Origin: Branchinecta lynchi
Lineage: Eukaryota > Arthropoda > Branchiopoda > Anostraca > Branchinectidae
Length of the DNA: 64,000 bases
NCBI GenBank assembly: GCA_023053575.1
Contig: JAKZAP010000018.1
Span: 5,022,001 to 5,086,000, forward strand
Direction of reading: 5' to 3'
Part shown: positions 27,690 to 49,721 of the stretch, one piece after another
Position numbering within the stretch: position 1 is the stretch's first letter
Layout: each line of letters starts with the position of its first letter
Notes under the pieces: model-generated
Seen by the model: the letters and a program-made list of their open reading frames with translations, nothing else
What the model was told of the DNA's origin: nothing
Databases searched by the model: none
Position numbers and translations under genes: made by a program

Positions 27690-27935
27690 CATGTATGAAG
27701 GAATGAATGAATGAATGAATATATTTATTACCCATCTTTACATAAAAATGTCACTGATGGAGTATAAGAAAAGAAAAATGTTATCGTTAAGAAGTATGTT
27801 ATCGTTTGTTGTGAGTGAGTGAAAGTTGTGCGCTCCCGCACACGACATGGTTGTACCCTTATTGGGAGCGTTATGTTCGTTGTTTCTTTTAAGGAATGTA
27901 GAAATTAAAATGAACTGAATTGAACTGAATTAACA
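27690..27935. repeat. LINE-like 3' tail with GAAT microsatellite
   Basis: A (GAAT) run at about 27,699-27,722 and a final aactgaattgaactgaatt run bracket AT-rich text with a gctcccgcacacgac word and its partial inverse. This is compatible with a retrotransposon tail. The X copy lies near 58,504-58,749. Confidence 0.35.
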
Positions 27936-28101
27936 AGCACTGACAGGAAGAAGCGAAAAACCGGCGGAAAAGTATCTGCTGAGTTGATATTATGACGAAA
28001 AACAAAAGTCAGCCAATGCTTTTTCTGTGGTTTCTGTAAAAATAATCTGACTGCTGCAGCTCCCTAAACCAAGTGGTGCGCCTGGGATAGAGCTCCAGGC
28101 C

Positions 28102-28182
28102 GCGCACGGAGTTACGGGAAAAGGCGGATCGTTAAAAAAATTGGACCCTGGGTTCCCCGCCTTTTCCCGTAACTCCGTGCGC
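28102..28182. repeat. perfect 26-bp inverted repeat (hairpin), in X
   Basis: The arm 28,102-28,127 (starting gcgcacggagttacgg) is perfectly complementary to 28,157-28,182 with a 29-nt loop. It is flanked by direct repeats of a tattatgacga...caaaagtcagccaatgc phrase (about 27,989 and 28,198), so it looks like a small insertion inside a duplicated sequence. The X copy lies at 58,916-58,996. Confidence 0.8.
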
Positions 28183-28471
28183 TGCCTGGTATTATGACGA
28201 TATTATGACGACAAACAAAAGTCAGCCAATGCTTGTTCTGTGGTTTTTCGCTTCTTCCTGGCAATGCCTGTTATGCATAAAATTTAAACAGTTTCTGGTT
28301 TATTGGTCACGGTACAAGTCCCTTGTTTAAAGTGCCACCTATGTGTTATTTTTAATTTCTGGATATGGGGATGTGAGCAGGTTATACGAATTTGCCTTCG
28401 GGCGGGATCACTGTTCCTATGGCCAGCTTCTATCAGACTATTGTACTGGTTTGCGAACTCTGTTCACAAGC

Positions 28472-28545
28472 CCCTCGGTAACTCAAATCGTAAGAGTGCC
28501 TGCTTTGTAAGCAGAGGGTCCTGGGTTCAAATCCCGGCTGATGAG
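28472..28545 (+). pseudogene. tRNA-Thr(TGT)-like pseudogene or SINE head, in X
   Basis: The D arm (ACTC/GAGT), the anticodon arm with loop TTTGTAA (anticodon TGT) and the T arm (CTGGG, TTCAAAT, CCCGG) are all recognisable. The acceptor stem (CCCTCGG against CTGATGA) has two mismatches and a wobble, and the anticodon stem has one mismatch. A tRNA pseudogene or tRNA-derived SINE head is more likely than a working gene. Confidence 0.6.
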
Positions 28546-29097
28546 CATTTTTGTCTTTCAGTTCACTACTTACAAAATGCATAAGGTTTCAAAATTACTA
28601 ACCTAACTGTCTATACTGTCTATAGCAATTCTAGACATATAAGACAAATTCCGATTGGGTTTAAAATTCGCTTCGACAACACATACTTAATATTTCGGTG
28701 CGAAAGAGGAAAATCGCATCAGACTGTTTGTGCACGTTACCAAGTCGAGTCCCCACAGAGCCCAGTGCGCAACTCGATTGCTGAGACGATAATAATGCTC
28801 CGGACATACCTCAAAATGGCTGTTTGAAGAAAAATAGCTTCAACAAAAGACTGATCTGGAATTTTTAGAGAAGAAGTTCATAAAATTAGATATTTAAGGA
28901 AGATTCTTTAATCTTTTTCCACAAGCTAATTTTCCAGCTTGAGGGGCCTGAGCCTAAGATGACCCTTGCCAAGAAGGGCCGAAATATAGCTCTAATAAAT
29001 GTAGCTGACTCGTCCGTTTGCACCGTCAAATATGATTCACAGTCAGCTTAGGCTTAAGGACTATCTATCACCACAGTAGATACTTCAGAATGTATTA

Positions 29098-35302: not shown

Positions 35303-35889
35303 AGTAGTTATATAAAGGGGGTTCTAGCTCACCATCCCCCCAATTTCAAAACCCCATTTTAACATCAATTTCTTAAATTTTAACATCCTTTTTACCAAAT
35401 TATCCCCCTTTTTAAGAACATTTTTATTTTCTTACTTCCAAAATAAAGGATACAAGAAATGAGAATATTACCCTTTACTACATATAAAATACTACAATAT
35501 ACTACTACTTCTTTTTTTTTACATTTTTCATTTTTTTATTCAAATATTACTGAGTAAACAGTTCTAAATCCACATATGTTTCTTTGTTCTTGTTTTCGCG
35601 TACAATCGGTTGCAAAACTAGATTTTTCTTTAAAAGTAATTCGTTAGCAATGGCATTATATTTCTGTGTTATAAACAAATCACAGGGTTTGTCATTATGA
35701 TTAATAACTACAACCAACTTATCACCATATTTTGTCTTAGCAATTCTCATTTTAACAATAGTATATTTCAATCCAAGAACTAGTTCTTCTTTCCTGATTG
35801 TCTCATTGTATTTATTCATTCTGATTGTATTCAAGACTTCCTTTGCGGACTCCATTTATTAGGGGATGATTTTATTAAATAAAAATCCA
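35303..35889. repeat. left terminal inverted repeat of the Polinton (587 bp)
   Basis: Reverse complement of 49,135-49,721 as far as I can read. It carries the minus-strand copy of the 102-aa gene and, at its outer tip, a TATATAAAG box directed inward (35,310-35,318). Its inner edge lies only 34 bp from the 102-aa start codon. Confidence 0.95.
35547..35855 (-). CDS. TIR-borne 102-aa protein, left copy (possible OB-fold-like)
   Basis: Function unknown. The protein is small and soluble-looking, mixed charge, with no signal peptide or membrane helix. The centre (residues about 28-66) alternates hydrophobic strands around a 'RIAKTKYGDKLVVVI' segment followed by 'DLFITQKYNAI'. A strand, then TKYG, then strand, then a Phe/Leu-x-x-x-x-Tyr turn is a layout I associate with small OB-fold-like or nucleic-acid-binding proteins of large DNA elements, but this is inference from pattern. 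It is identical to the right-TIR copy at 49,169-49,477, so the element has two outward-facing copies. The start has the ccctaataaATGG context shared by the late genes. Confidence 0.8.
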   Translation of the reverse strand: MESAKEVLNTIRMNKYNETIRKEELVLGLKYTIVKMRIAKTKYGDKLVVVINHNDKPCDLFITQKYNAIANELLLKKNLVLQPIVRENKNKETYVDLELFTQ

Positions 35890-35949
35890 AAGCTCCTAAT
35901 TACCGGCAGATCGTAACACCTGTGGTGTGAGAGATGCGTCACACTAAAT

Positions 35950-35969
35950 ATTCTCGAATATTCTCGAAT
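35950..35969. promoter_or_regulatory. heat-shock element, four perfect pentamers
   Basis: The pentamers aTTCt, cGAAt, aTTCt and cGAAt follow each other without gaps: four alternating nTTCn/nGAAn units, the consensus for trimeric heat-shock factor binding. The site lies about 55 bp upstream of the TATA box at 36,025 and about 500 bp upstream of the 258-aa frame. Confidence 0.75.
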
Positions 35970-36010
35970 ATTTAGATGCGTCACCTCCAGCAGATAGCAA
36001 GACTCGGCGG

Positions 36011-36033
36011 AGAAGATTCGCGAATATATATAG
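36011..36033 (+). promoter_or_regulatory. second heat-shock element abutting a TATA box
   Basis: aGAAg, aTTCg and cGAAt (36,011-36,025) are three perfect contiguous heat-shock pentamers, running directly into tatatatag (36,025-36,033), a TATA box. Transcription should start near 36,055-36,065. The layout matches animal hsp promoters. This is the only gene of the element with a clear RNA-polymerase-II-type core promoter. Confidence 0.75.
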
Positions 36034-36111
36034 TGTCGCGCATCTGGTTAAGGAGACATTTGTAAACAAGTTGAGATTAAGAAGGTGTTGAAGAAAGAAA
36101 AAATTTCCAGT

Positions 36112-36455
36112 GTAAGTATTTTTAGTTTTCTAGCGATAAAAACAAGGATATCCAGGTAGATAGGAATAGCTTCGTCTGAAACAAAAAATTACGCAAATAT
36201 CAAATATACCACACGAGTTATCAGATGACGAAGCGCATCACACGAGATGACGTAGGAAATTCTGTAAAGAATTTTTAATGGGTTAGATAATGTTGCGAAG
36301 CGCATCACACGAGATGACGTAGGAAATTCTGTAAAGGAATTATCTGGGTCAGATAATGTTGCGAAGCGTGTCACACGAGATGAAGTAGGAATCAAATGGT
36401 CTTCAAAAATTCTGTAAAGGAATCATCAAGGTCGTTAAAAGATTTTTATTTTCAG
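36112..36455 (+). other. putative 344-bp leader intron
   Basis: The 5' splice site is ccagt^GTAAGTATT at 36,112, close to the donor consensus. The 3' site is a pyrimidine-rich gatttttattttCAG ending at 36,455, immediately followed by ATG at 36,456. Splicing would remove several out-of-frame ATGs and the 66-bp tandem repeats. This is inferred from splice-site consensus; transcript evidence is needed. Confidence 0.55.
36195..36420. repeat. three 66-bp tandem repeats inside the putative intron
   Basis: The unit contains gcgaagcgcatcacacgagatgacgtaggaaattctgtaaag. Heads are at about 36,231, 36,298 and 36,364, with a partial fourth (aaaattctgtaaaggaatcatc) overlapping the upstream ATG at 36,396. 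The first 20 codons of the long frame therefore derive from repeat DNA. Confidence 0.8.
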
Positions 36456-37172
36456 ATGAACAGCGAAGGTATTCAGAAGAAAACAGCAACCATTCCGAAA
36501 AAGTATATGAATGGGTTGTTCAAACTGGAGAAATCGGAGCAAGAAACATTCCTTTCGCTGTGGAGTAAGGTAGTCACAGCCTCAGATGAAGTCGAAGGTG
36601 AAGACCGTACGACAGCGTGTTCCTCTGTTGACAAGAAAAAAGAGAAGAGCGTGCAGTTTTTAGCCGATATTAAAGCGAATTTACATGCTTCGCGAAGGTT
36701 TGGAAACTTCAAAGTGGACGTAAGCATCAAGAAGGTGCTGAGCAGCAAAATATGTGGAGTCAGTTTGGAACAAGCAGAACGTTTAATTATTGATTTAAAT
36801 AAAGTGGAGGTGTATTTGGATTATTTATCAGTGTTACTAAAAGCGAAAAAAGGTGAAGTGTATGCGTACATGCAAAAACTGTTCAATGACAACCCTGAGA
36901 ATCTGCACAAGTGTTTTCTTGAAGAACGATTTAAGAAATATGGAGAAAGCAAATCAACAATAAGAAGATATCTTCAGTTGTATGGATTAGTCCGCGAATA
37001 TCCTGGAATAGCTTTCTGTGGGAAAGGGTACTATTGCATCGTCGAAAATGAAAAAGCTATTCGCAAAGCGATCCAAGAGGATGAGATATTGTCTTCATTA
37101 CTCAAGGAGCATCCTGCGCAAGTTTTCTTATCCGATGAAGTGTTGATTGATTTTGATAATCTGAGTCTATAA
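36396..37172 (+). CDS. unknown early-type Polinton protein (258 aa, or 238 aa if spliced)
   Basis: Function unknown. The frame opens at 36,396, but the more likely start is the internal Met at 36,456, directly after a splice-acceptor-like tattttcag. This would give a 238-aa protein beginning MNSEGIQKK. It is Lys/Glu-rich, predicted mostly helical, with no signal peptide or membrane segment. The C-terminal third (about residues 170-240 of the long frame) contains a 'STIRRYLQLYGLVREYPGIAF' stretch that could be a small winged-helix or coiled unit, without firm support. It lies alone behind the heat-shock-type promoter, unlike the other genes, which start with TAAATG. An AATAAA signal at 37,193-37,198 follows the stop by about 20 bp. 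It may be a regulator or early function; that is inference from context only. Confidence 0.75.
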   Translation: MVFKNSVKESSRSLKDFYFQMNSEGIQKKTATIPKKYMNGLFKLEKSEQETFLSLWSKVVTASDEVEGEDRTTACSSVDKKKEKSVQFLADIKANLHASRRFGNFKVDVSIKKVLSSKICGVSLEQAERLIIDLNKVEVYLDYLSVLLKAKKGEVYAYMQKLFNDNPENLHKCFLEERFKKYGESKSTIRRYLQLYGLVREYPGIAFCGKGYYCIVENEKAIRKAIQEDEILSSLLKEHPAQVFLSDEVLIDFDNLSL

Positions 37173-37252
37173 ATGTTGAATTAAGTTTTCTCAATAAATT
37201 GATTGAGTTATAAGCTAGATTTTGTTGCTAGGTGGTGGTTATGTGTGAAGAG

Positions 37253-37672
37253 TCACACTGGTGGAACATTCTTCTGAACTATTGATGTATTCTTGCAATA
37301 TTTATAGCCATTCAGACGGACTTGTTTCATGTATTTTTCGCGAGGAAAAAATCGAAAGGTTTTACGCATCTCTGTTTCTCTCTGAATTACCTCCTCAATT
37401 GTTAACTGTCCGCATTTTAGCATTGACAACAACTCAGTATAAAAATCATAAATAGTCCTAAATTCTGCTTTTCTATCAGCAATGCTTAATTGCTTTTCAA
37501 TTATTTCGATGATAACAGCACCCAAACTTAAAGAAGCTAGCGGTAGCACTAGAAACGCAGACATTCCTGCTGCTGAAAAGAGGAATTTGGATACAAGTAA
37601 GCTATTACTTATACGATTGTAGTACTTGTAACTGCGACGGTAAACATACATTTTCTTTTCTAATTCTTCCAT
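37253..37672 (-). CDS. small membrane protein with two transmembrane helices (139 aa)
   Basis: A basic, Tyr-rich N-terminus (residues 1-25) is followed by two hydrophobic helices at about 26-42 and 43-58 separated by a short Gly/Ser turn. A soluble helical tail contains 'FYTELLSMLKCGQLTIEEVIQRE', a pattern common to small Polinton/adintovirus-encoded 2-TM proteins. The function is not established; membrane association during assembly or entry is a reasonable guess. It is convergent with the 258-aa gene (stops 80 bp apart) and divergent from the polymerase gene. The start context on its strand, tattataaATGG, is the late-type motif. Confidence 0.8.
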   Translation of the reverse strand: MEELEKKMYVYRRSYKYYNRISNSLLVSKFLFSAAGMSAFLVLPLASLSLGAVIIEIIEKQLSIADRKAEFRTIYDFYTELLSMLKCGQLTIEEVIQRETEMRKTFRFFPREKYMKQVRLNGYKYCKNTSIVQKNVPPV

Positions 37673-37972
37673 TTATAATATAATAAAATTGTTTCGAAAA
37701 ATATTTCTAACAAAATAAAGAGTAGTAACCAAATGCCGATTTCGTCAAGAGTAGTAACCAAAAGCGGATTTTCGTTAAGAGTAGTAACTAAATGCCGATT
37801 TCGTCAAGAGTAGTAAAGAATAAAGGAAACCCGTGACTAGTAGTAAAGCATGTGCGAAACCCATAAGGGCGTCGGAAAATACATAGTAAAGGATTTGGAA
37901 AACCAGTGCTTTTCTTTACGGTTGAGAAAACGCAGACTGGGAAATTTATTAATAAAAATGTTCCCCTATTAA
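37673..37972. promoter_or_regulatory. divergent promoter region with ~29-bp tandem repeats
   Basis: Between the divergent 139-aa and polymerase genes, 37,720-37,850 holds three clear and two degenerate units of about 29 bp with agagtagtaaccaaatgccgatttcgtca as consensus. They occupy the position expected for shared upstream control elements. The left and right edges carry the tataaATG and tattaaATG start motifs. Confidence 0.55.
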
Positions 37973-40900
37973 ATGATGAATACTGCAGAGGTTATTCAGC
38001 TTTGTAAAAAGGTTATATCAAACAACAAAGCGGTTATACAAAGATTATCGCTATACACATATAATGAACTGCGGACTTATGCGAAAATTAATAAAATCAA
38101 AACAAATGGAGCTAAGAAACATGAAATAACAAATAATATAATAAACCATCTTAATAAGTATATTTTGATAGCTGAAGATAAAATTAAAATTGAACGCAGA
38201 AACGAAAGAACTCATAATAAGAACAGACCATCCGACTACAAACCAGAACCGAGATTACGAACCATTCTGGAAGATGAGATAAAAGAAAATAATATCACCA
38301 TTACAAAACTAAAACAAGAATACAATGATAACAAAGAAAAAGAGACAAGCGAATTAAAGAAATTTCTGAAAAACAAGAACCTATCAACTCGCGGAAACCG
38401 AGAAGAAGTACTAAAAAGAGTTGGAGAATACTATAATAATATTATTACCAAACATAAAGATTCCGTACAGAAAAATAGAGATATCATAAGAGATCAAACA
38501 GAAAGACGTGACAACAGTAGACAGAAACCAATTGGTTTATCAACTCTCTTCATAAATAAGAAAAAAATCCAAGTAGAAAAATTAATTCCTGATCATTTAT
38601 TTAGAACTGAAGAAGAACAGCAGCCTACTATTTTTAGCGAAAGTGAGAATATATTCACTGTAAACGTTTCAGTTCAAGGTAATGGAGTTGACGAGCATAC
38701 TCTTATTGCTTTTACTTTCGCAGATATACAGCGGCGAATGAACGAAATAAATCAATATAGAGTTCAGTTTGTAACTCGGGTTATTTTCCATCGACAGGAG
38801 AATGATGAAGAAGTAGTAGTATATTACAACAGTACTTCTTGGATTTTAAATAAAAATAGCATTCTTACTCATAATCATTTGGATGATAATAACAAGAGAC
38901 TGAGTTCTTTAAGTAATACCCCTCGATCTGGGCTACAATTTAGTCGGTATGAAGGAATTGATTATAGGATGACACGAATAGAATCTTACATGGGAGGAAC
39001 GTTTAAAATACTACCAGATTTCGTAAAAAATAAAAAAGCGTGCATAAATATAAAAAATTTAGATCAAAAATGCTTTCTTTGGTCCATCTTAGCACATTTA
39101 TACCCAACCAAGGACAACGCTGAGAGACTTTCGAAATATAAGCAATATGAGAACCAATTTGATTTCGAAGGGGTTACCAACTTCCCAATGGATACTAAAG
39201 ATATACACAAATTTGAAAATAGATACAACATTAAGATTTGTTTATTTCAAATTGAAAAAGAGAAAATTATCAGAAGTCATATACTAAAAAGTACAATCAA
39301 TGGCAAAACAGCTAAACATGTTATTAATTTATTATATTTCGATAATCATTATGTACTGGTAAAGGATCTGAGCAGATTAGTTGGTCCTCAAATATCTAAA
39401 AAGAAAACAAAGACATACCTCTGCACTTATTGCGGAAGGCATTTTAAGAAGGAAGAATGCTTTGAAAAACATGAAAGTAAAAATAATTGCGAAGATCCTG
39501 ATATTATAATGCCTCCTGAAGGTTCAAGTATACAATATAAAAATATTGCAAAACAAATGAAAGTACCTTATTGCATAATAGCCGACTTTGAGTCTTATAA
39601 CGAAGAGTACAATCAAGTAAACGGGAAGAAAACAATAAAAGTGGCCAAACAGAAGCCATTTGCTTACGGATTTCAGGTATGCTGTTCCTTTGATACAAAC
39701 CAGAACAAATACTACGATTATTTCGGTGAAGACGCTGCAAAACATTTTGTTAAAACCGTTACAAAAGTATCCACAGAAATTGCAAACAAATATGAAAGCA
39801 GACAAAGAAACCATACTTATACCAATGCAGAAATTGTGAATAAATGGAATAAACTAACTAATAAGACTTGTCACATCTGTACAACTGAAATTACTGAAAA
39901 TCCTCACTTTGATCACGACCACATGACAGGAGAAGATAGGGGATTTGCTCATGCTGAATGTAATATGAAATACAGGATTCCTAGGCATATCCCGGTAGTA
40001 ATGCATAATTTATCAAAATATGACTCTCATTTATTTGTTAGAGAATTGATACCTGATAACGGAATTTTTGAAAGTGCAGAAAGTTTCATCTCATTCTCGA
40101 AATCAATAAGTATAAGAAAGACGGATACGGAAATAAAATATGAGATGCGGTTTATAGATTCAATTAGATTTATGGCTTCATCTTTAGACAAACTATCAGC
40201 AAATTTAGCAACATGTGATTGCAAAGTACCTTGTAATCATCTAAGACAGAATTTCAAGTACACATCTAACAGCTTCAAAAATGACGATGAATTCAAAGAA
40301 ATAATTAAAAAAGGTGTGTATCCCTATGAATTCGTGGATAGTTTCGATAAAATGAATTGTACAAACTTACCACCAATAGAAAGCTTTTATTCTAGGTTGA
40401 CGGGGAAAGGTATTGACAAAAGTGATTATAAAAGAGCGGTATCTATATGGAAGCAATTTAACTGTGAAACATTACTTGATTATACCAAGTTGTACCTAAA
40501 AAGTGATGTGTTAATTCTATCAGACGTTGTGGAGAATTTCAGAAATGTGTGTATACATAATTATGATCTGGATCCACTTCATTACTTCTCAGCTCCAGGA
40601 CTAACATGGGATGCTTTCCTAAAGCATTCGAAAGTAGACTTGCCGTTATTCTCAAAGGAAGACATGTATACCTTTATAGAAAAAGGAATAAGAGGTGGTG
40701 TATCCCAATGTATAAAAAGATACGCAAAAGCAAATAATAAATATACAAGTGATTATAATAAGAATAAGCCATCTAATTATTTAGTGTATTTGGATAAAAA
40801 TAATTTATATGGGTGGGCGATGTCGCAGAATTTACCCGCGAATGATTTCCAATTCATTTCCATACCGGATGATTTGAAAGAAAGGAATGAATATGAATCA

Positions 40901-42049
40901 ATCGAGTATTACAACCATCTGAAAAGTCATATCAAGTCGGTGATTACGATTAAGTCGGTGAGACAAGATGTGGGTGCTATATATGAGGTAGACTTAGAAT
41001 ATCCAAAAGAACTACACGAATTACACAAGGATTTACCATTAGCACCCGAACACTTTAACGGTAAGCTATGTACCACAGTATTAGATAAAACTAACTATGT
41101 AGTTCACCACAGGAACCTAGAATTCTATTTACAAAAAGGTTTGATATTGAAAAGAGTACACAGAATACTAGGATTCACTGAAAGTGCTTACTTAAACGGA
41201 TATATAGACCACAACACAGCACTTAGAACTAAAGGTACAAATGATTTTGAAAAGGATTTCTTTAAGCTTATGAATAATGCTTGCTTTGGAAAAACTATGG
41301 AAAACGTAAGGAAGCGAGCGGATATGGAAATAATAACGGATGATACAACAAGAGAAAAAATAATAAAGAAACCCAACTTTAAATCTGAAATAATATTCAG
41401 TGAAAACTTTTCAGTAGCAAGAATGTCAAAGGAAAAGATAAAATTAGACAAACCAATGTACATCGGCTTTGCTGTATTAGAACTATCCAAGTTATTGATG
41501 TATGAATTCCATTATGATTATATGAAGCCTAAATATGGAGATAAAATTGATTTGTGTTATATGGACACTGATTCTTTCATATACGACATTCGAACCGAAG
41601 ATTTCTATGAAGATATCAAACAAGATTTGAATGAGAGGTTCGATACATCTGATTATGCGAAAGATAATCCATATGGGTTTCCTAGTGTAAATAAGAAAGT
41701 GATAGGAATGATGAAAGATGAATTAGGTGGACAGGTTATGACAGAGTTTGTTGGATTACGATCAAAGGTATATGCTTATTTAAAGGACAACCAAGACCCT
41801 TCAAAAGCTAGCAAAAAACTGAAAGGAATAAAAACCAATATAGTTAAAGATAAAATTACGATTCAAAACTATAAGGATGTACTGTTTGGTAAAACGGAAA
41901 ACCTTTCTATAACCCAGTATAACTTAAGATCATACAAGCACAATATGTTTCTAGAAGAACAGAATAAAAAAGCGTTAGATCCTAAGGATGATAAAAGGAT
42001 AGTAACAAGCGATAAAATACACACTTTACCTTTAGGTTATAAACATTAA
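37973..42049 (+). CDS. polB: protein-primed family B DNA polymerase (pPolB)
   Basis: At 1,358 aa this is a full-length Polinton replicative polymerase, which copies the linear genome from a protein primer at the TIR ends. Two SAP-like helix-extension-helix stretches lie at about 20-60 and 125-150. A domain at about 360-470 with 'NLDQKCFLWSIL' and a later 'NHYVLVKDLSRL' looks like a papain/OTU-like fold. A C2H2 finger is at about 482-507. The exonuclease has motif I IADFE (D538, E540), an inserted CHIC...DHDH treble-clef/Endo VII-like unit (about 633-665), motif II HNLSKYD (678-684) and motif III Y841-LKS-D845. The polymerase has motif A DKNNLYG (941-947), motif B K1098-MNNACFG and motif C YMDTDS (D1198, D1200), then SKVYAY. 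All catalytic acids are present. The start context is cctattaaATGATG. Confidence 0.97.
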   Translation: MMNTAEVIQLCKKVISNNKAVIQRLSLYTYNELRTYAKINKIKTNGAKKHEITNNIINHLNKYILIAEDKIKIERRNERTHNKNRPSDYKPEPRLRTILEDEIKENNITITKLKQEYNDNKEKETSELKKFLKNKNLSTRGNREEVLKRVGEYYNNIITKHKDSVQKNRDIIRDQTERRDNSRQKPIGLSTLFINKKKIQVEKLIPDHLFRTEEEQQPTIFSESENIFTVNVSVQGNGVDEHTLIAFTFADIQRRMNEINQYRVQFVTRVIFHRQENDEEVVVYYNSTSWILNKNSILTHNHLDDNNKRLSSLSNTPRSGLQFSRYEGIDYRMTRIESYMGGTFKILPDFVKNKKACINIKNLDQKCFLWSILAHLYPTKDNAERLSKYKQYENQFDFEGVTNFPMDTKDIHKFENRYNIKICLFQIEKEKIIRSHILKSTINGKTAKHVINLLYFDNHYVLVKDLSRLVGPQISKKKTKTYLCTYCGRHFKKEECFEKHESKNNCEDPDIIMPPEGSSIQYKNIAKQMKVPYCIIADFESYNEEYNQVNGKKTIKVAKQKPFAYGFQVCCSFDTNQNKYYDYFGEDAAKHFVKTVTKVSTEIANKYESRQRNHTYTNAEIVNKWNKLTNKTCHICTTEITENPHFDHDHMTGEDRGFAHAECNMKYRIPRHIPVVMHNLSKYDSHLFVRELIPDNGIFESAESFISFSKSISIRKTDTEIKYEMRFIDSIRFMASSLDKLSANLATCDCKVPCNHLRQNFKYTSNSFKNDDEFKEIIKKGVYPYEFVDSFDKMNCTNLPPIESFYSRLTGKGIDKSDYKRAVSIWKQFNCETLLDYTKLYLKSDVLILSDVVENFRNVCIHNYDLDPLHYFSAPGLTWDAFLKHSKVDLPLFSKEDMYTFIEKGIRGGVSQCIKRYAKANNKYTSDYNKNKPSNYLVYLDKNNLYGWAMSQNLPANDFQFISIPDDLKERNEYESIEYYNHLKSHIKSVITIKSVRQDVGAIYEVDLEYPKELHELHKDLPLAPEHFNGKLCTTVLDKTNYVVHHRNLEFYLQKGLILKRVHRILGFTESAYLNGYIDHNTALRTKGTNDFEKDFFKLMNNACFGKTMENVRKRADMEIITDDTTREKIIKKPNFKSEIIFSENFSVARMSKEKIKLDKPMYIGFAVLELSKLLMYEFHYDYMKPKYGDKIDLCYMDTDSFIYDIRTEDFYEDIKQDLNERFDTSDYAKDNPYGFPSVNKKVIGMMKDELGGQVMTEFVGLRSKVYAYLKDNQDPSKASKKLKGIKTNIVKDKITIQNYKDVLFGKTENLSITQYNLRSYKHNMFLEEQNKKALDPKDDKRIVTSDKIHTLPLGYKH

Positions 42050-42285
42050 ATTCAAGTACCTACTTAAAAAATTCAAGTACCTACTTCAAAACTTCAAGTA
42101 CCTACTTAAAAACTTCAAGTACCTACTTAAAAACTTCAAGTACCTACTTAAAAAATTCAAGTACCTACTTAAAAAATTCAAGTACCTACTTAAAAAATTC
42201 AAGTACCTACTTAAAAAATTCAAGTACCTACTTCAAAAAATCAAGTATATACTTAAAATACTCAAGTAAATCTTATAATGAAAAA
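42050..42285. repeat. 20-bp tandem repeats between polymerase and ATPase genes
   Basis: About eleven copies of ttcaagtacctacttaaaaa, nearly perfect, begin right after the polymerase stop and stop shortly before the ATPase start motif. They could serve as a transcription terminator, spacer or origin-like element; nothing in the sequence decides this. Confidence 0.9.
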
Positions 42286-42299
42286 TTCTTCCTAAATAA

Positions 42300-42977
42300 A
42301 TGAATGAAAAGGCTCCAATCAAAGTCTATGACTTTAGTGAAAAGAACACTTATCAGAATAAGCACGACCTTGCACCTCAGTGGCCATTTAGATTATTAAT
42401 TTGTGGAAGTTCTGGAACAGGGAAAACTAACCTTCTTTTGAATTTAATTTATGAATATCTTTGTTTCAACCGAATATACTTGTATGCTAAAGATCTTGAA
42501 GAAGATAAATATCAAGACCTTATAACCAATTTAACCACTTTGGAGTCACAATGCAAATCGAAAGTCTTAACAGTAAGTAACAATCTTGATGATATTGTCG
42601 ATGTGGACGACTTAGACCCTGAGTACCAAAACTTGATTATCTTTGACGATTTTGTCACTGAAAAAGACCAGAAGAAAATAGAAGATTTATTCATAAGAGG
42701 AAGAAAGAAAAATGCCTCAATTATTTACTTGTCTCAAAGCTATCATAAAACGCCAAAGGTGGTAAGACTCCAGTGCAATTATTTTGCATTCTTTCAGTGT
42801 TCTAATCCAAAAGAAGTAAAATTAATAAGACAAAGCCATGTATCCAGTATAGACGATGAAAAATTTCTCAAACAATTCGAGACTGCAACCAAGGGCTACG
42901 GTTTTTTCTTCATAGATTTAAAAATAAAAGATAAAACCCTTAAGTACAGGAAAAACTTTGAAAAATTTACCGGATAA
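42300..42977 (+). CDS. FtsK/HerA-family genome-packaging ATPase
   Basis: At 225 aa this matches the A32-like packaging ATPases of Polintons and related viruses, which use ATP to drive DNA into preformed capsids. The Walker A motif is GSSGTGKT at residues 36-43. The Walker B motif is a hydrophobic run ending in IIFDDF at about 113-118. A sensor/arginine region 'FIRGRKKNASIIYLSQS' follows at about 130-146, typical of the family. It leads the plus-strand late block, starts in the context cctaaataaATG and is separated from the fibre-like gene by only 16 bp. Confidence 0.95.
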   Translation: MNEKAPIKVYDFSEKNTYQNKHDLAPQWPFRLLICGSSGTGKTNLLLNLIYEYLCFNRIYLYAKDLEEDKYQDLITNLTTLESQCKSKVLTVSNNLDDIVDVDDLDPEYQNLIIFDDFVTEKDQKKIEDLFIRGRKKNASIIYLSQSYHKTPKVVRLQCNYFAFFQCSNPKEVKLIRQSHVSSIDDEKFLKQFETATKGYGFFFIDLKIKDKTLKYRKNFEKFTG

Positions 42978-42993
42978 TTTATTTCTATAATAA

Positions 42994-43728
42994 ATGAATA
43001 AATTTGGTAGTGTCGGAAAAAAGGTTAGTAACGAATCGAATGTAAAGGTAGTTACTGACGAAAACGGTAACATTAACCTACAGGATAGGCGAATTGTTAA
43101 TTTAGGTGATGCCAAAGCAGATCAGGATGCGATTAGCTTAAGGTTGATGACTATTATTTTGAATCAGTTTAAAGAACAAATAACTGCAGAACAAGTGCAA
43201 GCCAATCAATATTTTAGCGAAGATATTAACAGATTAACCTTGGTAGATGATTCTCCTGACAATGCAATGGTAAGGATCAAAGATAAAGGATTATTTGTAA
43301 AACCAACAATTCAGGTTACTGATAAAGAACTTGATGCTGGGAATAAAGTTATCACAAATGTTCAAGATCCTAGAAACAAACATGATGCTGTTAATTTAGG
43401 AACGTTAACTACGTATCTTTTAGATTTTGACAAAAAGCTCGAAAACCAACAAGCCCTTAGCATAAGTATTGAAACGAAGATTGGCGACCTTAGCAAAAGT
43501 ATTGACAAAAAGCTTCTTGACCTTAGGAAAAGTATTGAGAAAAAGCTCGAAAACCAACAAAAAATTAGCAGTTTTATTGGTTCAAATGATTTGGACCAAA
43601 ATCTGCATATCAATGGTATTGAAAGAGCAGTCGTAAACATTTTAAAAAGGCTTTTAGAGCAAAAACCTGTTGATCAAGATTTTGTTAAGAAAACAGAAGA
43701 CTTCATGAAAACTAAACTAAAGAAATAA
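42994..43728 (+). CDS. fibre/spike-like structural protein with coiled coil
   Basis: This 244-aa protein has two copies of a tail-fibre-type repeat. The first, at about 25-50, reads 'RRIVNLGDAKADQDAISL'; the second, at about 116-137, reads 'NKVITNVQDPRNKHDAVNL'. The N-L-x-D/P...DAV-N/S-L pattern is well known from trimeric phage tail fibres. Between about 145 and 190 a heptad-like region rich in 'KKLENQQ' and 'SIDKKLLDLRKSIEKK' predicts a coiled coil. A vertex fibre or spike is the simplest reading, inferred from repeats and context (between ATPase and core protein). No signal peptide. Start context ctataataaATG. Confidence 0.8.
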   Translation: MNKFGSVGKKVSNESNVKVVTDENGNINLQDRRIVNLGDAKADQDAISLRLMTIILNQFKEQITAEQVQANQYFSEDINRLTLVDDSPDNAMVRIKDKGLFVKPTIQVTDKELDAGNKVITNVQDPRNKHDAVNLGTLTTYLLDFDKKLENQQALSISIETKIGDLSKSIDKKLLDLRKSIEKKLENQQKISSFIGSNDLDQNLHINGIERAVVNILKRLLEQKPVDQDFVKKTEDFMKTKLKK

Positions 43729-43758
43729 AATTTATATGATAAATTAATTCCCTAATAA

Positions 43759-44328
43759 ATGGTTGAAACAATGGAGTATACAGTTTATTTGTCAAAGCTT
43801 CAGAAAGGAAAGCTGAAGAAATGTTTTGATGCTAAACAAAAATGTCAGATACGTGTTAGTCATAGTAGACAAAATGAACGGGAACCAGTCAAGTTACTTT
43901 TAAGTAAACGACAAATTGATAAAATTGAAACATGTAAAATGAATAATAAGGGTTGTGATATTGATGTATCATACAAGCAGATGAGAGAAGCGATTCAAAA
44001 AGGTGGATTACTTCCATTTTTAATACCGCTAGCAATTACCCTTGGTAAGGCAGCTTTAACAAGTGGTGCTGCTGCTTTGGGTACATTCGCTGGTAAGAAA
44101 ATTATGGATAAAATGACCAACACAGGTGGTGCGCTAAAACTTCCTGGAACACAAAAAGTTACCGGTAATGGTGTACGTGGTAGACCTAAGAAGGAAAAAA
44201 CCGATGATGTCAACACAGGTGGAGCGCTAACACTTCCTGGAACACAAAAAGTTGTCGGTCATGGGGTACGTGGAAGGCCTAGGAAGTCAAAAAACGGGGA
44301 CATCAAAAAAGAAGCAAAAGTAAAGTAG
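43759..44328 (+). CDS. AT-hook core protein, adenovirus pX-like
   Basis: This 189-aa protein probably condenses or anchors the genome in the virion. The N-terminal 80 residues are basic and Cys-containing. A hydrophobic stretch GGLLPFLIP then 'LAITLGKAALTSGAAALGTF' at 82-110 resembles the Gly/Ala-rich segment of adintovirus pX-type core proteins. The C-terminus is a tandem duplication of about 32 residues (120-150 and 151-182). Each copy has NTGGAL-LPGTQKV and an RGRPKK or RGRPRK AT-hook (140-145, 171-176). Each AT-hook is preceded by a GxG cut-like site (VTGNG 134-138, VVGHG 165-169) that may be processed by the element's protease. Start context ccctaataaATGG. Confidence 0.85.
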   Translation: MVETMEYTVYLSKLQKGKLKKCFDAKQKCQIRVSHSRQNEREPVKLLLSKRQIDKIETCKMNNKGCDIDVSYKQMREAIQKGGLLPFLIPLAITLGKAALTSGAAALGTFAGKKIMDKMTNTGGALKLPGTQKVTGNGVRGRPKKEKTDDVNTGGALTLPGTQKVVGHGVRGRPRKSKNGDIKKEAKVK

Positions 44329-44351
44329 GACCTCTAACCAATTTTGATATT

Positions 44352-44696
44352 ATGGATGCATTAGGGAGTATACCACAGTTTAGAGGTGTGTTCTCTTTAG
44401 ATACGCTACCCAAACATATAAACGATTCGGAATGTGGTGTAATCAACTATGACAAACGTGGAATGCCTGGAACACATTGGGTTGCCTATTGTAATCTACC
44501 TGAATCCCCCTATGTCGAATTTTTCGATTCTTTCGGTATTCCTCCAGGAAAAGAAATAGTTAAATATCTAAGAACTTCAAAGAAAAAAATAGCTTATGAA
44601 AATCTTGCTGTCCAAAATATAGACGAAGTAAACTGTGGACTTCACTGTATTTCCTACATTAAGCGCAAAATGAAGTTGGTAGCTTTTCGTTTATAA
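44352..44696 (+). CDS. adenain-like cysteine protease (maturation protease)
   Basis: This 114-aa protein is a compact member of the adenain/Ulp1 family that matures capsid proteins in Polintons and adenoviruses. The triad is visible in family order: His42 in GTHWVAY, Asp59 in FFDSFG, and Cys95 in VNCGLHC, with Gln88 as the oxyanion residue. It is shorter than most family members (about 150-200 aa), mainly through a short C-terminus after the catalytic Cys, but no core element is missing. It is the one gene in the late block without the TAAATG motif (context gatattATGG), 23 bp after the core gene. Confidence 0.93.
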   Translation: MDALGSIPQFRGVFSLDTLPKHINDSECGVINYDKRGMPGTHWVAYCNLPESPYVEFFDSFGIPPGKEIVKYLRTSKKKIAYENLAVQNIDEVNCGLHCISYIKRKMKLVAFRL

Positions 44697-44713
44697 AAAT
44701 TATTTTCTAATAA

Positions 44714-44881
44714 ATGGAGATTTATTGTATGAAATGTAAAAAGAGCACTGACACTGAATCAATGTTTAAGGCAGTGTCACAAAAAAATAATGTTCCAATG
44801 CTGAAAGGGAATTGTGTTATTTGCGGGTCGAGGAAAAATCGCTTTTTAAAAAAAACCTCAACGCAGAAACAGATATTTTAA
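44714..44881 (+). CDS. DUF5679-like zinc ribbon (55 aa)
   Basis: The gene starts in the strong late context ttctaataaATGG. Two zinc knuckles are visible: YCMKC (Cys5, Cys8) and NCVICG (Cys34, Cys37), separated by a segment with 'VPMLKGNC'. Spacing and the K-G-x-C-x-x-C-G layout match the small DUF5679-type zinc ribbons encoded by Polintons and virophage-like elements. The frame overlaps the integrase frame and ends in it at 44,881. Its last codons include TTT TTA AAA AAA, a possible -1 frameshift site (44,845-44,851). It is too short for most ORF scans. Function: probably nucleic-acid or protein binding in cis with the integrase; inferred. Confidence 0.85.
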   Translation: MEIYCMKCKKSTDTESMFKAVSQKNNVPMLKGNCVICGSRKNRFLKKTSTQKQIF

Positions 44882-45783
44882 AGACGTATTATTCTAATTA
44901 TTCAGGTGTGGATGATATTTACAGAAAATTAAAAGAAAATGGTGTTAAGGTTTCCAAGGATAAAATAAAAAATGTGTTGCAAAATGAGAATGTGTATACG
45001 TTACACAAACCTTCCTATCATAACTTTGAAAGGAGGCGAGTGTATGTTCACTATGTTGATGAGCAATGGCAAGCTGATTTAGTTGACATGCAGAAATATA
45101 AAAAAGAAAATAATAAAACAAATTACATTTTAACTGTTATTGATTGCTTTAGTAAATATGCTTGGTGTGTCCCTCTGAAAGACAAAACGGGTGCTGAAAT
45201 AATAAAAGCATTCAGTGTTATATTTAAAGAAAGAATTCCTAAGAAACTACAAACTGATAAAGGTAAAGAATTTGTGATGAGAAATGTTCAATCTTTTTTG
45301 AAAAATAACGATATACACTGGTTTGCATCTGAAAGCGAATTGAAAGCGCAAATTGTAGAACGATTCAATAGAACGCTGAAAGACAAGTTATGGAAATATT
45401 TCACTCACAATAACACTACTAATTGGATTGATATTTTACCTTTATTTGTGAGTAATTATAATAACTCGTACCACCGTTCAATACAAATGAAACCAGTTGA
45501 TGCTAGTAAAAAGGTTAATCAGAAAAAGGTTTTTAGTGCTCTGTTTCCTCCAGTAGATGACTACAAAATCACAGGAAACGTCAAAGTAGGGGATTTAGTC
45601 AGAATTAAAAAAGAAAAAAGTATTTTCGATAAAGGATATTTACCTAATTATACGGATGAGGTATTTCAGATAGCAACCATCAGACCTACCATTCCCATTA
45701 CTTATGAAATATCTGACAAAAGTGGGGAATTAATTCAAGGAGGGTTTTATGAAAAAGAACTTTCAAAATTTATTATGAAATAA
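44812..45783 (+). CDS. int: RVE-family integrase (Polinton)
   Basis: This is a DDE integrase that joins the element ends to the target. The catalytic core shows Asp89 in WQADLVDM, Asp149 in LQTDKGKEF and Glu183 in IVERFNRTLK (numbered from 44,812), with an N-terminal helical region that resembles other Polinton integrases. A C-terminal SH3/chromo-like segment at about 255-320 starts 'VKVGDLVRIKKEK'. The reading frame opens at 44,791 and contains no ATG before the core; the first codon at 44,812 is TTG. The frame overlaps the zinc ribbon at -1 relative to it, with T_TTA_AAA at 44,845-44,851. Either a programmed -1 frameshift produces a zinc-ribbon/integrase fusion, or one base is missing or extra in the A8 run (44,848-44,855). 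Confidence 0.95.
   Translation: MCYLRVEEKSLFKKNLNAETDILKTYYSNYSGVDDIYRKLKENGVKVSKDKIKNVLQNENVYTLHKPSYHNFERRRVYVHYVDEQWQADLVDMQKYKKENNKTNYILTVIDCFSKYAWCVPLKDKTGAEIIKAFSVIFKERIPKKLQTDKGKEFVMRNVQSFLKNNDIHWFASESELKAQIVERFNRTLKDKLWKYFTHNNTTNWIDILPLFVSNYNNSYHRSIQMKPVDASKKVNQKKVFSALFPPVDDYKITGNVKVGDLVRIKKEKSIFDKGYLPNYTDEVFQIATIRPTIPITYEISDKSGELIQGGFYEKELSKFIMK
44845..44851 (+). promoter_or_regulatory. candidate -1 ribosomal frameshift site T_TTA_AAA
   Basis: In the zinc-ribbon frame the heptamer is X_XXY_YYZ with X = T, Y = A, Z = A, a canonical slippery sequence. A -1 slip enters the integrase frame exactly here. I found no obvious strong hairpin downstream by eye. Alternative: a one-base indel in the A8 run by sequencing or mutation. 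Confidence 0.5.
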
Positions 45784-45799
45784 AATTACTTGTATATAA

Positions 45800-46621
45800 A
45801 TGGATTCAAGACGCTTGAGTGATATGTTATCGGATATAGTGAAGAACAGAGAAATTCAGAGAAGCAAGGTTCAGCAAAATGAGATGGAGAAGGCAGGATT
45901 TCGGGAATATGCTTCAGAATTAAACGCTCCAGTTATTATAGCACAAAAAGAAAACACTAAAGACACCATCAAAAAATTACAAGAGAACGCTGAAACGATA
46001 ATTAATAAACTACAGGAAGGTGATAATAATTCAAGAAGACGGTTTCTCAGATTAGGTGATACATTTAAAACAGCTTTACAGACCACTACTTCAGAGGAAG
46101 TGAGTCGAGCACCCGCTTTAGAACCTTCTCCCAATTTAGGACCACTATCCGTTGATATGAATAAAGATATTACCCAAGAGTTGTTAAATCAGATTAATTT
46201 AAAACATGTAGAATCGCGGGGTGGCACTGATACTTATTTTAAAATGCCTACGTATTACATTAAGCATCATACGGATATAGATGAGGCTCTAGAACGTTTG
46301 ACATCTCTAAGTCAAAGTTATGGCGGGAAAAAAGGTAAAGGTTACTCTAGCTATGATGAAATCCTTGAATTTATAAGAGAATACAAGGAGAGGTTAACCA
46401 GCATTCGAACTAATTCCCCATTAGTCAACCAACAAGGAACTGGTGTATTTATGAATTGTGATGAAATGATTTCAAAATTATACACTTTGATAGGTAGCAG
46501 AGTAAACGGAAATACATCTGATGAGGTGAGAAATGAAGCTATTGATATTTTGGATTCGTTAATGCGAAATAAATTTCTTACGAAGAGAAATTACAATTCA
46601 ATATATAAAAATTATTTCTAA
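45800..46621 (+). CDS. unknown structural-type protein (273 aa)
   Basis: I do not recognise a family with confidence. The N-terminal 75 residues are strongly helical with a likely coiled coil at about 48-75 ('TKDTIKKLQENAETIINKLQEG'-type heptads). A Pro/Ser/Thr-rich linker follows at about 95-118, then a helical C-terminal half that ends in 'RNEAIDILDSLMRNKFLTKRNYNSIYKNYF'-type text. A QQGTG sequence at 211-215 matches the xxGx|G pattern seen in the core and pVI-like proteins. It sits between integrase and penton genes, 16 bp and 3 bp from its neighbours, with start context gtatataaATGG, so virion assembly is the most likely role. Confidence 0.75.
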   Translation: MDSRRLSDMLSDIVKNREIQRSKVQQNEMEKAGFREYASELNAPVIIAQKENTKDTIKKLQENAETIINKLQEGDNNSRRRFLRLGDTFKTALQTTTSEEVSRAPALEPSPNLGPLSVDMNKDITQELLNQINLKHVESRGGTDTYFKMPTYYIKHHTDIDEALERLTSLSQSYGGKKGKGYSSYDEILEFIREYKERLTSIRTNSPLVNQQGTGVFMNCDEMISKLYTLIGSRVNGNTSDEVRNEAIDILDSLMRNKFLTKRNYNSIYKNYF

Positions 46622-46624
46622 TAA

Positions 46625-47347
46625 ATGGTGTTGTTAAACATTGAAGGTAATGAAAGTATCATTGATATAACATTTAGTCAACCAATCGAATTGAATCGTA
46701 ATTGGGATTATGAAATAGGTTTGAATCAGTGTACTTTGTGGTATTCATGGCATAATATAAGTGATAAATTTGGAAATAATACATTTCAATACAGGAAAGA
46801 TGAAGATAATAATGCAACAGAATGGATGAATGTTACTATTCCTAATGGGATGTATAACGATGATTGTTTGAATTATTTTTTGTGTCAGTATTTTGATACC
46901 CCAAAAGATAAATGTCCTATTGTAATTTCATCCAATCCAGCATCTATGAGATTTGTCATACTATTACAAGAAAAATATGTGTTTAGATTTAATAGTGACT
47001 TGTGTCAGATTTTAGGATTTGAGAAGGATAGTGAGATATCTAAGAAAATCAATGAAGGTACAAAGCTTCCGAATATAACAAGAAGCGTTGATAAAATTCA
47101 AATTCACTGCTCTCTTGTAAACAGTTCTATCGTAAACAAAAGTAAATCAGATGTCATTTGGACATTTGTTCCGAATACAGAACCGGGTTGTCAAATTGTT
47201 GAGAATCCTAGACAATTAATCTACCTTCCTATTAATACAAAAGACTTTATTTACTCCTTGAGAATGACAATTACTGATCAGTTGGGAAGACCTATCGATT
47301 TGAATGGTGATAACGTTGGATACGTACTGCATTTAAGAAAAGCTTAA
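46625..47347 (+). CDS. minor capsid protein (penton, single jelly-roll)
   Basis: At 240 aa this matches the Polinton penton protein, which forms the pentameric vertices. Family signs are a start with alternating beta strands ('IIDITFSQPIELN'), an early 'NWDYEIGLNQCTLWYSW' block, a central 'TIPNGMYNDDCLNYFL' block (the TIP-x-G-x-Y/F signature), and a C-terminus 'SLRMTITDQLGRPIDLNG' ending in a short 'YVLHLRKA' strand. Its start codon overlaps the late motif of the preceding stop (ttctaataaATGG). It lies directly upstream of the pVI-like and major capsid genes, as in other Polintons. Confidence 0.9.
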   Translation: MVLLNIEGNESIIDITFSQPIELNRNWDYEIGLNQCTLWYSWHNISDKFGNNTFQYRKDEDNNATEWMNVTIPNGMYNDDCLNYFLCQYFDTPKDKCPIVISSNPASMRFVILLQEKYVFRFNSDLCQILGFEKDSEISKKINEGTKLPNITRSVDKIQIHCSLVNSSIVNKSKSDVIWTFVPNTEPGCQIVENPRQLIYLPINTKDFIYSLRMTITDQLGRPIDLNGDNVGYVLHLRKA

Positions 47348-47379
47348 AGGATTAGTGAAATAAAATTATTTACCTATAA

Positions 47380-47736
47380 ATGTTGATTAATAATAAGCGA
47401 TTACTTTATAAAAAGCAGTATGGAAGTGGAATCGGTAGTGTATTCAAAAACATTGTTAATTCCCAGTTATTTCAAACGTCAGCAAAACAAATAAAAGATG
47501 GGGCTATGTCAATGTATAATAATATTATTAAACCGAGATTTGAGTTGTTGAAAAACAGAGCAATAGAATATGGGAAAGATCTGATCGATGTAAACAAGAA
47601 AGAACTCATTGATGTAATTGGAAACAAAAAATCGATGAAGGATCTTATCGGTACAAATAAAAGGATTTTAAATCAAAGAAGTCAGGACTTGATCAAAACG
47701 TTAATGACTGGAAATGGATTAAAGATTCTGAAATAA
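47380..47736 (+). CDS. pVI-like minor virion protein (118 aa)
   Basis: It is small, basic and helical, between penton and major capsid genes, the usual place of the adenovirus pVI-like protein. A QYGSG sequence at 13-17 precedes an amphipathic helix (about 18-40, beginning 'IGSVFKNIVNSQLF'). A second site, MTGNG at 109-113, lies near the C-terminus and fits the adenain consensus (M/I/L)XGX|G exactly. Cleavage at both would release a central helical protein with a membrane-active N-terminus, as in adenoviruses. Function is inferred by position and motif. Start context cctataaATG. Confidence 0.8.
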   Translation: MLINNKRLLYKKQYGSGIGSVFKNIVNSQLFQTSAKQIKDGAMSMYNNIIKPRFELLKNRAIEYGKDLIDVNKKELIDVIGNKKSMKDLIGTNKRILNQRSQDLIKTLMTGNGLKILK

Positions 47737-47766
47737 GTTTTATTTAATAATTTCTTTCTTATATAA

Positions 47767-49131
47767 ATGGCAGTAAATAAAGTTATCAGTCCGCAATGGA
47801 ACATTTTTGATGAACCGCTTGTTGATGATACAGTGGTAAGATACGAATTTAAAGAAATTCGAGAAACAGATGTGAATGTATCTAATAAATCAGAGTTTGA
47901 ATTCGTAACGAAGAAATTAGATTCCTGGTTTTATCCAAGTGAAAGTTATCTTGATGTTAGTGTAAGAATAGTGAAAGAAAATGGAGATAATATAGCTGCA
48001 ACCGATATTGCTACTTTAACGAATAATGGATTTAATTTATTCAGTACCGCTGAATATGTAATAAACGATGAATCGGTTGAAAAAATTAATCATGTTGGTA
48101 TTACAACTACCGTTACAAAGTTGATTGAATACTCTGATGATTATTCTAGAAGTGCAGCAAGAAATCATTTCTGGTATAAGGATTATAATCAAGGAAAAGA
48201 AATTAATCCTGTTATTGCTTCGTTTACTGCAACTCCAGTAGTAGCAGGGGCTGCAGCAGGGGGTGGAACAGTCAGTTTGAGAAATAATAATAATTATAAT
48301 AAAGGATTTGAAAAAAGATATAACAGAACAAAGAGCAGTAAATTAGTAAATATGTATTTACCATTATCAGAATTGTTTGGATTTCTGAAAGGAAACAAAC
48401 GATTCTTCAGAGGTGCATCGCATAAATTATTTCTAAGAAGAAATGATGATAACAACATGATTATAAGAAATGGAAATACTAATTTCAAAGTAGTAATCGA
48501 GTATTTATCCTGGAAGATCCCTATTGTAGCTCCTAGTATCGAAATGATGAGTGAATTAGAAAAGGGTCTTGCTAAGGATAAAAAGCATAATCTGATGTGG
48601 GAAGCATGTAATACTTATAAAAGCGATGTTAGTCAAAATAAGGAACACACTTGGAAAGTTATATCTGAGAGAAACAATCCAACAAAAGTAGTTGTGATGC
48701 TACAGAAAAATGAAAAGCATAACAATCAATTAATGAATAATATGGTGTTTGATCATATGAATTTAACAGACATAGAACTTAGAATTAATGGGGATAAATA
48801 TTCCGAAGAACCACTTAAATGTGATTTTAGCGATGACAAATGTAAATACTCAAATCTTTACAATAGGTTCATACATTTGGGTTATAAACAATTAGCATTT
48901 GATACTGGTAGTGTTGTTAGTATAGAAGAATTTAAAGAAGTATATCCACTATTCTGTTTCGATGTTTCCAAACACGAGTCAAATATTTATAATGGAACAA
49001 CTGCTGATATTGAAATAAGTTTAACGTTGAAAGATAATCAACCCGTACCATATAATGTTTACTGTGTTATATATTATGAAAGAAAAGCTACATTAGGTAT
49101 TATTAACAAAAATATGTATGTGAGTTTGTGA
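47767..49131 (+). CDS. major capsid protein (double jelly-roll, hexon-like)
   Basis: At 454 aa it has the expected size and position for the Polinton major capsid protein, which forms pseudo-hexameric capsomers from trimers. Recognisable blocks: 'NNGFNLFSTAEYVINDESVE' (about 85-104), 'LPLSELFGFLKGNKRFFRG' (about 198-216), 'VVIEYLSWKIPIVAPS' (about 242-257) and a beta-rich C-terminal half. A Gly/Ala insertion (VAGAAAGGGTVS, about 158-169) looks like a surface loop. It is the last unique gene: the right TIR begins 4 bp after its stop. Start context cttatataaATGG. Confidence 0.93.
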   Translation: MAVNKVISPQWNIFDEPLVDDTVVRYEFKEIRETDVNVSNKSEFEFVTKKLDSWFYPSESYLDVSVRIVKENGDNIAATDIATLTNNGFNLFSTAEYVINDESVEKINHVGITTTVTKLIEYSDDYSRSAARNHFWYKDYNQGKEINPVIASFTATPVVAGAAAGGGTVSLRNNNNYNKGFEKRYNRTKSSKLVNMYLPLSELFGFLKGNKRFFRGASHKLFLRRNDDNNMIIRNGNTNFKVVIEYLSWKIPIVAPSIEMMSELEKGLAKDKKHNLMWEACNTYKSDVSQNKEHTWKVISERNNPTKVVVMLQKNEKHNNQLMNNMVFDHMNLTDIELRINGDKYSEEPLKCDFSDDKCKYSNLYNRFIHLGYKQLAFDTGSVVSIEEFKEVYPLFCFDVSKHESNIYNGTTADIEISLTLKDNQPVPYNVYCVIYYERKATLGIINKNMYVSL

Positions 49132-49134
49132 GTC

Positions 49135-49721
49135 TGGATTTTTATTTAATAAAATCATCCCCTAATAAATGGAGTCCGCAAAGGAAGTCTTGAATACAAT
49201 CAGAATGAATAAATACAATGAGACAATCAGGAAAGAAGAACTAGTTCTTGGATTGAAATATACTATTGTTAAAATGAGAATTGCTAAGACAAAATATGGT
49301 GATAAGTTGGTTGTAGTTATTAATCATAATGACAAACCCTGTGATTTGTTTATAACACAGAAATATAATGCCATTGCTAACGAATTACTTTTAAAGAAAA
49401 ATCTAGTTTTGCAACCGATTGTACGCGAAAACAAGAACAAAGAAACATATGTGGATTTAGAACTGTTTACTCAGTAATATTTGAATAAAAAAATGAAAAA
49501 TGTAAAAAAAAAGAAGTAGTAGTATATTGTAGTATTTTATATGTAGTAAAGGGTAATATTCTCATTTCTTGTATCCTTTATTTTGGAAGTAAGAAAATAA
49601 AAATGTTCTTAAAAAGGGGGATAATTTGGTAAAAAGGATGTTAAAATTTAAGAAATTGATGTTAAAATGGGGTTTTGAAATTGGGGGGATGGTGAGCTAG
49701 AACCCCCTTTATATAACTACT
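49135..49721. repeat. right terminal inverted repeat of the Polinton (587 bp)
   Basis: Inverse of 35,303-35,889. It starts just after the capsid stop codon, contains the plus-strand 102-aa gene and ends …TATATAACTACT, so the element tip reads AGTAGTTATATA inward. The first flank bases are CGTGGG. Confidence 0.95.
49169..49477 (+). CDS. TIR-borne 102-aa protein, right copy
   Basis: Identical in translation to the left copy at 35,547-35,855 (see there for description). Here it follows the major capsid gene in the same direction and starts in the full late motif (atcatcccctaataaATGG). An AATAAA at 49,494-49,499 follows the stop by about 16 bp, a typical polyadenylation signal, and the left copy has the same. 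Two identical copies imply gene conversion between TIRs or recent origin. Confidence 0.8.
   Translation: MESAKEVLNTIRMNKYNETIRKEELVLGLKYTIVKMRIAKTKYGDKLVVVINHNDKPCDLFITQKYNAIANELLLKKNLVLQPIVRENKNKETYVDLELFTQ

Follow-up and report, generated by a model that had tools for sequence, protein, structure and literature searches.

The locus described here bears on what makes an integrated Polinton become active, with seven perfect pentamers of the heat-shock element (HSE) type standing beside a TATA box at the left end of a Polinton/Maverick element. The window, by which we mean the whole stretch of DNA that was analysed, comprises 64,000 bases of an animal host assembly of 575.7 Mb. The questions are whether the pentamers are there by chance, whether they belong to the Polinton as such, and whether host heat-shock factor (HSF) would read them.

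The element and its setting

The element belongs to Polinton/Maverick (Table 1). Inspection of the tips showed AGTAGTT at the TIRs, and the limit of the TIR was taken from other genomic copies; the element is therefore placed at 35303-49721. A long inverted match had offered a TIR of 4.28 kb, which was rejected, as other copies show it to consist of the 587-bp TIR and 3.69 kb of inverted flank. A TSD is lacking in the window copy, since each of its flanks is an inverted copy of the other. A 6-bp TSD, CCTGTA, was found in another copy (L166/L162), one of five examined and the only one in which both tips were located by exact string; in the remaining four this string search did not locate both. 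The element is centred in a 3.69-kb palindrome, as 31610-35302 matches 49722-53415 in reverse complement. In addition, 18911-31613 recurs at 49722-62427 with an identity of 99.96%. The palindromic flanks may be the result of a misassembly through the TIRs or of a genuine rearrangement.

Over residues 860-1358 the polymerase shares 43-53% identity with the best of the homologues listed, 7930 of the 7987 scored candidates had E≤1e-3, and the species-named ones among the 120 listed were all animals, including Stylophora, Uloborus, Araneus and Halyomorpha. No Pfam polymerase model matched the 1358-aa ORF at 1e-3. We take the family B DNA polymerase of Polinton/Maverick to be of the protein-primed type. 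The end of the polymerase gene and the gap before the ATPase gene are taken up by about 10 tandem copies of a 21-bp unit (42006-42299). Family searches found no convincing match for the 102-aa ORF inside the TIR, and the Rfam and tRNA scans gave no matches. Searches for related Polintons in IMG/VR with the capsid, the polymerase and a capsid alignment confirmed none.

Table 1. Features of the element, in window coordinates
Feature	Position	Strand	Basis or remark
Polinton/Maverick element, 14,419 bp (14.4 kb)	35303..49721	+	tips AGTAGTTATATAAAGG; limit set by TIR pieces in other copies (L158, L159)
Left TIR, 587 bp	35303..35889	+	right TIR at 49135-49721
102-aa ORF within TIR, divergent from HSE promoter	35547..35855	-	no convincing family match
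Left-end cassette A: HSE promoter, leader with predicted intron, 238-aa gene	35890..37289	+	junctions: TIR inner edge, element position 1988
GATGCGTCAC, left copy beside array 1	35933..35942	+	string search
HSE array 1: ATTCT CGAAT ATTCT CGAAT, four perfect pentamers	35950..35969	+	sequence, run scan
GATGCGTCAC, right copy beside array 1	35975..35984	+	string search
HSE array 2: AGAAG ATTCG CGAAT, three perfect pentamers	36011..36025	+	sequence, run scan
TATA box TATATATA	36025..36032	+	base 36025 common to array 2
Predicted transcription start	36056..36058	+	~31 bp past TATA; from spacing
Predicted 5'UTR intron, GTAAGT ... TTTTATTTTCAG	36113..36455	+	sequence; TRF: holds 67-bp tandem repeats
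Accessory gene of 238 aa, or 258 aa with a start at 36396	36456..37172	+	ORF list
139-aa ORF across right edge of cassette A	37253..37672	-	ORF list
Family B DNA polymerase with SAP and endonuclease VII domains	37973..42049	+	Pfam SAP, Endonuclease_7; 1358-aa ORF
A32-like packaging ATPase	42300..42977	+	Pfam Pox_A32 2.1e-13
Adenain-like protease frame, start codon undefined	44331..44693	+	weak match: Peptidase_C5 E 0.0018, 18.4 bits, below curated cut-off of 21.3
rve integrase, open frame from 44791	44791..45783	+	Pfam rve 2.6e-14
Double jelly-roll major capsid protein	47767..49131	+	DJR-like_dom 2e-26; 22 homologues

Two non-random HSE-like arrays

The sequence-only reading had placed four pentamers at 35,950-35,969 and three more at 36,011-36,025, the latter running into a TATA box, and had held such an arrangement to be very unlikely by chance. 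The coordinates were exact, and the count in shuffled sequence that it had proposed bore out the second claim. The whole window contains only two runs of at least three contiguous alternating TTC/GAA pentamers (nTTCn/nGAAn), the ones at 35950 and 36011. Dinucleotide shuffles of the window gave on average 1.33 runs of at least three and 0.04 runs of at least four, and a run of four with a second run within 80 bp appeared in 0/300 of them. When 581 bp were shuffled locally, the probability of a run of at least four was 0.00025, and both runs were obtained jointly in 0/20,000 shuffles. Among 3,000,000 sequences drawn from a first-order Markov model of the promoter and leader (566 bp), 41 contained the pair (1.4e-5). 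The motif had been chosen post hoc, and a look-elsewhere control was made with 288 grammars (32 trimer classes at 9 spacings). Only GAA at spacing 5 gave a run of four in the 581-bp promoter stretch, and in the rest of the window 4+3 clusters came only from AAA at spacings 10-12, in A-rich tandem repeats. The HSE-like arrays are real and non-random.

In its layout the promoter has what is expected of an HSE promoter: at least three contiguous alternating nGAAn pentamers, here four and three, and a site directly upstream of the core promoter, as array 2 meets TATATATA. CGAA pentamers are less favoured than AGAA pentamers. The two arrays differ in their construction. Array 1 is a tandem 10-mer, AATATTCTCG, in 2.6 copies, and its four pentamers are therefore not four independent events; array 2 lies outside this tandem 10-mer. 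The string GATGCGTCAC occurs exactly twice in the whole window, once on either side of array 1. Its reverse strand holds TGACGCA, which we take to be CRE/ATF-like, and the two copies look as if an insert had been flanked by a duplication, or else as if CRE-like sites had been paired. The 67-bp tandem repeats at 36229-36391, inside the predicted intron, carry TGACGTA, presumably also CRE/ATF-like. Both the transcription start and the splicing of the leader are predicted; among 140 genomic copies the donor string of the intron was found in 131 and the acceptor string in 139, and the predicted intron length, measured in 138 of them, varied from 277 to 573, being mostly 345 or 390.

The construction of array 1, a tandem palindromic 10-mer between two exact GATGCGTCAC copies, would also suit operators for a different DNA-binding protein, encoded by the element or by the host, with the HSE match as a by-product of the palindromic ATTCNNGAAT unit. 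The 238-aa gene has no known homologue (0/540 word-sharing candidates at E 1e-3) and could encode such a regulator. However, searches of Pfam, PHROGs and the PDB with it returned weak noise only and no DNA-binding family, and single-sequence folding of the protein gave no confident fold (pLDDT 39.5). Furthermore, array 2 is no copy of array 1 in the window element and yet follows the same grammar, while TTCTCGAA is found at two and TTCGCGAA at one other place in the element, all within coding sequence. We regard operators of this kind as decidedly unlikely.

Copies of the promoter and exchange of the cassette

The promoter stretch had 232 candidate matches in the genome, of which the 40 scored were 98-100% identical, and the 238-aa gene had 269, of which all 150 scored were 97-100% identical and four had a stop. 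We read the promoter in 140 distinct copies from 150 stretches (the window and L009-L157), leaving out nine duplicates and L081, where the start anchor was not found. The arrangement of 4+3 perfect pentamers is kept in 124 of the 140, with both arrays exact in 118 and changed spacer bases in six; in one of these six, L093, array 1 has the opposite orientation and still consists of four perfect pentamers. Among the other copies, two have 3+3, eight have lost one 10-bp unit and kept array 2, and two have array 1 only. No array was seen in four, namely L064 (an assembly gap), L091 (unrelated DNA upstream), L127 and L145. Three 4+3 promoters, at G000:C6:18038686, 18042590 and 18046496, follow one another at intervals of about 3.9 kb with the same orientation, and may represent pieces of the element in tandem.

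The copies are young, the median pairwise divergence of the main clade being 1.75% (343 columns), and the shared arrays therefore show descent and not function; constraint is not provable from them. The variation was counted without L091, L127 and L145, and L064 was dropped from the alignment. With L093 included, the core TTC/GAA sites seem to be less variable than the non-core sites (3/21 as compared to 8/14, p 0.011), but without it the difference is lost (3/21 as compared to 4/14, p 0.40), and the four changes in L093, which make up half of those in the spacers, have the look of a single event. Nor is the variation in the arrays (11/35 sites) lower than in the promoter flanks (43/188).

L127 and L145 carry an intact 238-aa gene and the same leader, with a different upstream part. 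Array 1 is absent, array 2 is degenerate and TATATATA is replaced by ATATTTAG. The two copies differ strongly from the others upstream of about 36051, and from there to 36120 they agree but for one base; a break at this position is in keeping with the start at 36056-36058 that the TATA box predicts. The body of L127/L145 is of the same family, with 95.3-95.5% identity in the capsid region, while two other copies have 96.6-96.7%; six pieces were used for this comparison, among which L161 had no element match and L162 only a TIR tip. The weak promoter of L145 reads ATATTCGTGAATATTTAG..., which is close to a single array 1 unit followed by the right flank of that array, and it may be that array 1 arose by copying of the promoter-proximal site.

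An intact gene without good HSEs, arrays no less variable than their flanks, a number of units that varies (8/140 minus one) and a sharing that reflects descent would all agree with a fortuitous tandem expansion that hitch-hikes with the cassette and has no regulatory role. Against this, there are two separate arrays in one promoter next to a TATA box, and their joint probability of 1.4e-5, together with the grammar control, speaks in the same direction. Such hitch-hiking is in our judgement quite unlikely.

Twelve further copies were picked through the capsid gene, away from the scored 238-aa hits, a choice that disfavours the HSE type, so that frequencies are not to be read from it. Nine of them carry another cassette, two carry cassette A (L172, L178), and L181 had no element match. 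The nine relatives share the TIR, and from 37290 on also the body, with a differing segment of about 0.5-0.6 kb in between, which is of type B in seven (L183, L184, L185, L187, L188, L190, L191) and of type C in two (L186, L189). None of the nine, in about 1.4 kb each, has the 238-aa gene or any run of at least two alternating pentamers. By eye, cassettes B and C hold stretches that resemble tRNA-type A/B boxes; ARAGORN (run on all nine) and Rfam (on four of the nine) gave no matches. Since the nine relatives lack both gene and HSEs, the promoter is a feature of the accessory cassette, and the Polinton family as a whole does not use it. The earlier description of this gene as the first gene of a Polinton is right for the window copy and wrong for the family. 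The comparison of copies indicates that the 238-aa gene and its HSE promoter together make up an exchangeable left-end accessory cassette, and that the promoter is not that of a core Polinton gene.

Host HSF and comparison with known systems

The 4+3 design, with a gap of 20-50 bases, was found at 188 places in the assembly as compared to two in a backward-read control, and all 100 of the places among the matches listed, out of 188 in total, are the Polinton HSE promoter. Perfect four-pentamer sites number 361, as compared to 52 in the control, and of 50 distinct places among the matches listed, 29 are Polinton sequence and 21 are other. Of the perfect four-pentamer HSF-type sites in this 576-Mb animal genome, the Polinton may thus carry about half, 188/361 (52%) if the other 88 4+3 places are alike, while the excess of non-Polinton sites over the control suggests that the host uses HSEs too. 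A related capsid query had 1149 candidate places, of which 93 were scored and were 56-57% identical to the query; the genome probably bears a very large and young Polinton load. The host has an HSF DNA-binding exon, recognised by one match to PF00447 (profile positions 23-63 of 100, E 4.8e-9, over the cut-off). The only Hsp70 promoter that could be read is that of an HSC70-like gene (L192) with a single two-pentamer run in about 700 bp upstream, and Hsp70 therefore provides no positive control.

The explanation we favour, with moderate confidence, is that the arrays are HSEs read by host HSF in a compact stress-responsive promoter of the 238-aa gene, promoter and gene travelling together as an exchangeable cassette of a recently amplified Polinton family. 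Heat or proteotoxic stress would free HSF, which would trimerise on both arrays, the one of three pentamers beside the TATA box and the one of four pentamers that lies about 40 bp farther upstream, and the accessory gene would then be induced. Judged from the sequence, HSF control of the cassette A promoter is likely to be functional. Points that count against it include the intact gene with poor HSEs in L127/L145, the possibility that array 1 arose by slippage, arrays that vary at no fewer sites than their flanks, and the less favoured CGAA pentamers.

It is also conceivable that HSF acts on the arrays as a constitutive or developmental activator, for example in the germ line, and not as a stress switch. 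Seven pentamers beside a TATA box are the layout of inducible hsp promoters, which argues against this, whereas a high-copy family would need germ-line expression to spread. HSFs act outside stress too, and HSF4 is described as binding constitutively (reviewed in PMC12366260). We consider a role of this kind rather unlikely.

If stress-responsive HSF control is accepted, the cassette might act as a prophage-like induction switch in the Polinton, as the sequence-only reading had hypothesised. A wider and fairly improbable version is that stress sensing is a plug-in, consisting of an exchangeable HSF-responsive promoter and an early accessory gene. Stress, such as infection or heat, would turn the gene on and start or boost mobilisation, and the copies with many pentamers would have spread where L127/L145 did not. 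The family offers a natural experiment within one genome, as the same TIRs and body occur with or without the HSE cassette, and with seven, five, or at most two good pentamers.

The element resembles other animal Polintons/Mavericks in its PolB, integrase, ATPase, DJR capsid, AGT tips and 6-bp TSD, and differs in its swappable left-end cassette with an HSE promoter. Literature searches combining Polinton/Maverick with heat shock, HSF1, promoter and stress found no report of an HSE in a Polinton, within a coverage that most subscription papers fall outside. The literature consulted has one case in which Polinton transcripts are linked to stress: in the sea anemone, the transcripts raised at a CO2 vent include one that matches Polinton-2_PH, with a value of 5.95 in a table of PMC6505742.

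Links to heat or to host HSF are reported for several mobile or parasitic DNAs. Sleeping Beauty is a Tc1/mariner cut-and-paste element, and there the gene concerned is the transposase, unlike in this Polinton, where the gene is absent from many copies. The likeness is that of a DNA transposon with HSF sites inducing its own gene: according to a meeting report, Hsf1/2 sites induce the transposase, and a stress activation of latent copies is proposed (PMC3520738). ONSEN of Arabidopsis shares the heat-driven transcription of a mobile element, but it is a plant LTR retrotransposon and its activation is proven (PMC6927752, PMC8376061). The HSEs of the EBV Qp promoter and the HIV-1 LTR are likewise cases of a DNA-borne parasite wired to host HSF1, in unrelated viruses for which functional data exist (reviewed in PMC9157408).

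The Helitrons of Caenorhabditis are alike in being DNA transposons with clustered HSEs upstream of their own gene and a large share of the HSEs in the genome. PMC6927752 gives this share as more than half of the HSEs in C. elegans, as compared to up to 188/361 four-pentamer sites here. The same paper reports that HSF-1 binding was measured and that Rep-helicase mRNA goes up in heat, whereas here a virus-like Polinton and an accessory gene are known from their sequence. New insertions could bring host genes in their vicinity under heat-shock control, as Helitrons did in Caenorhabditis.
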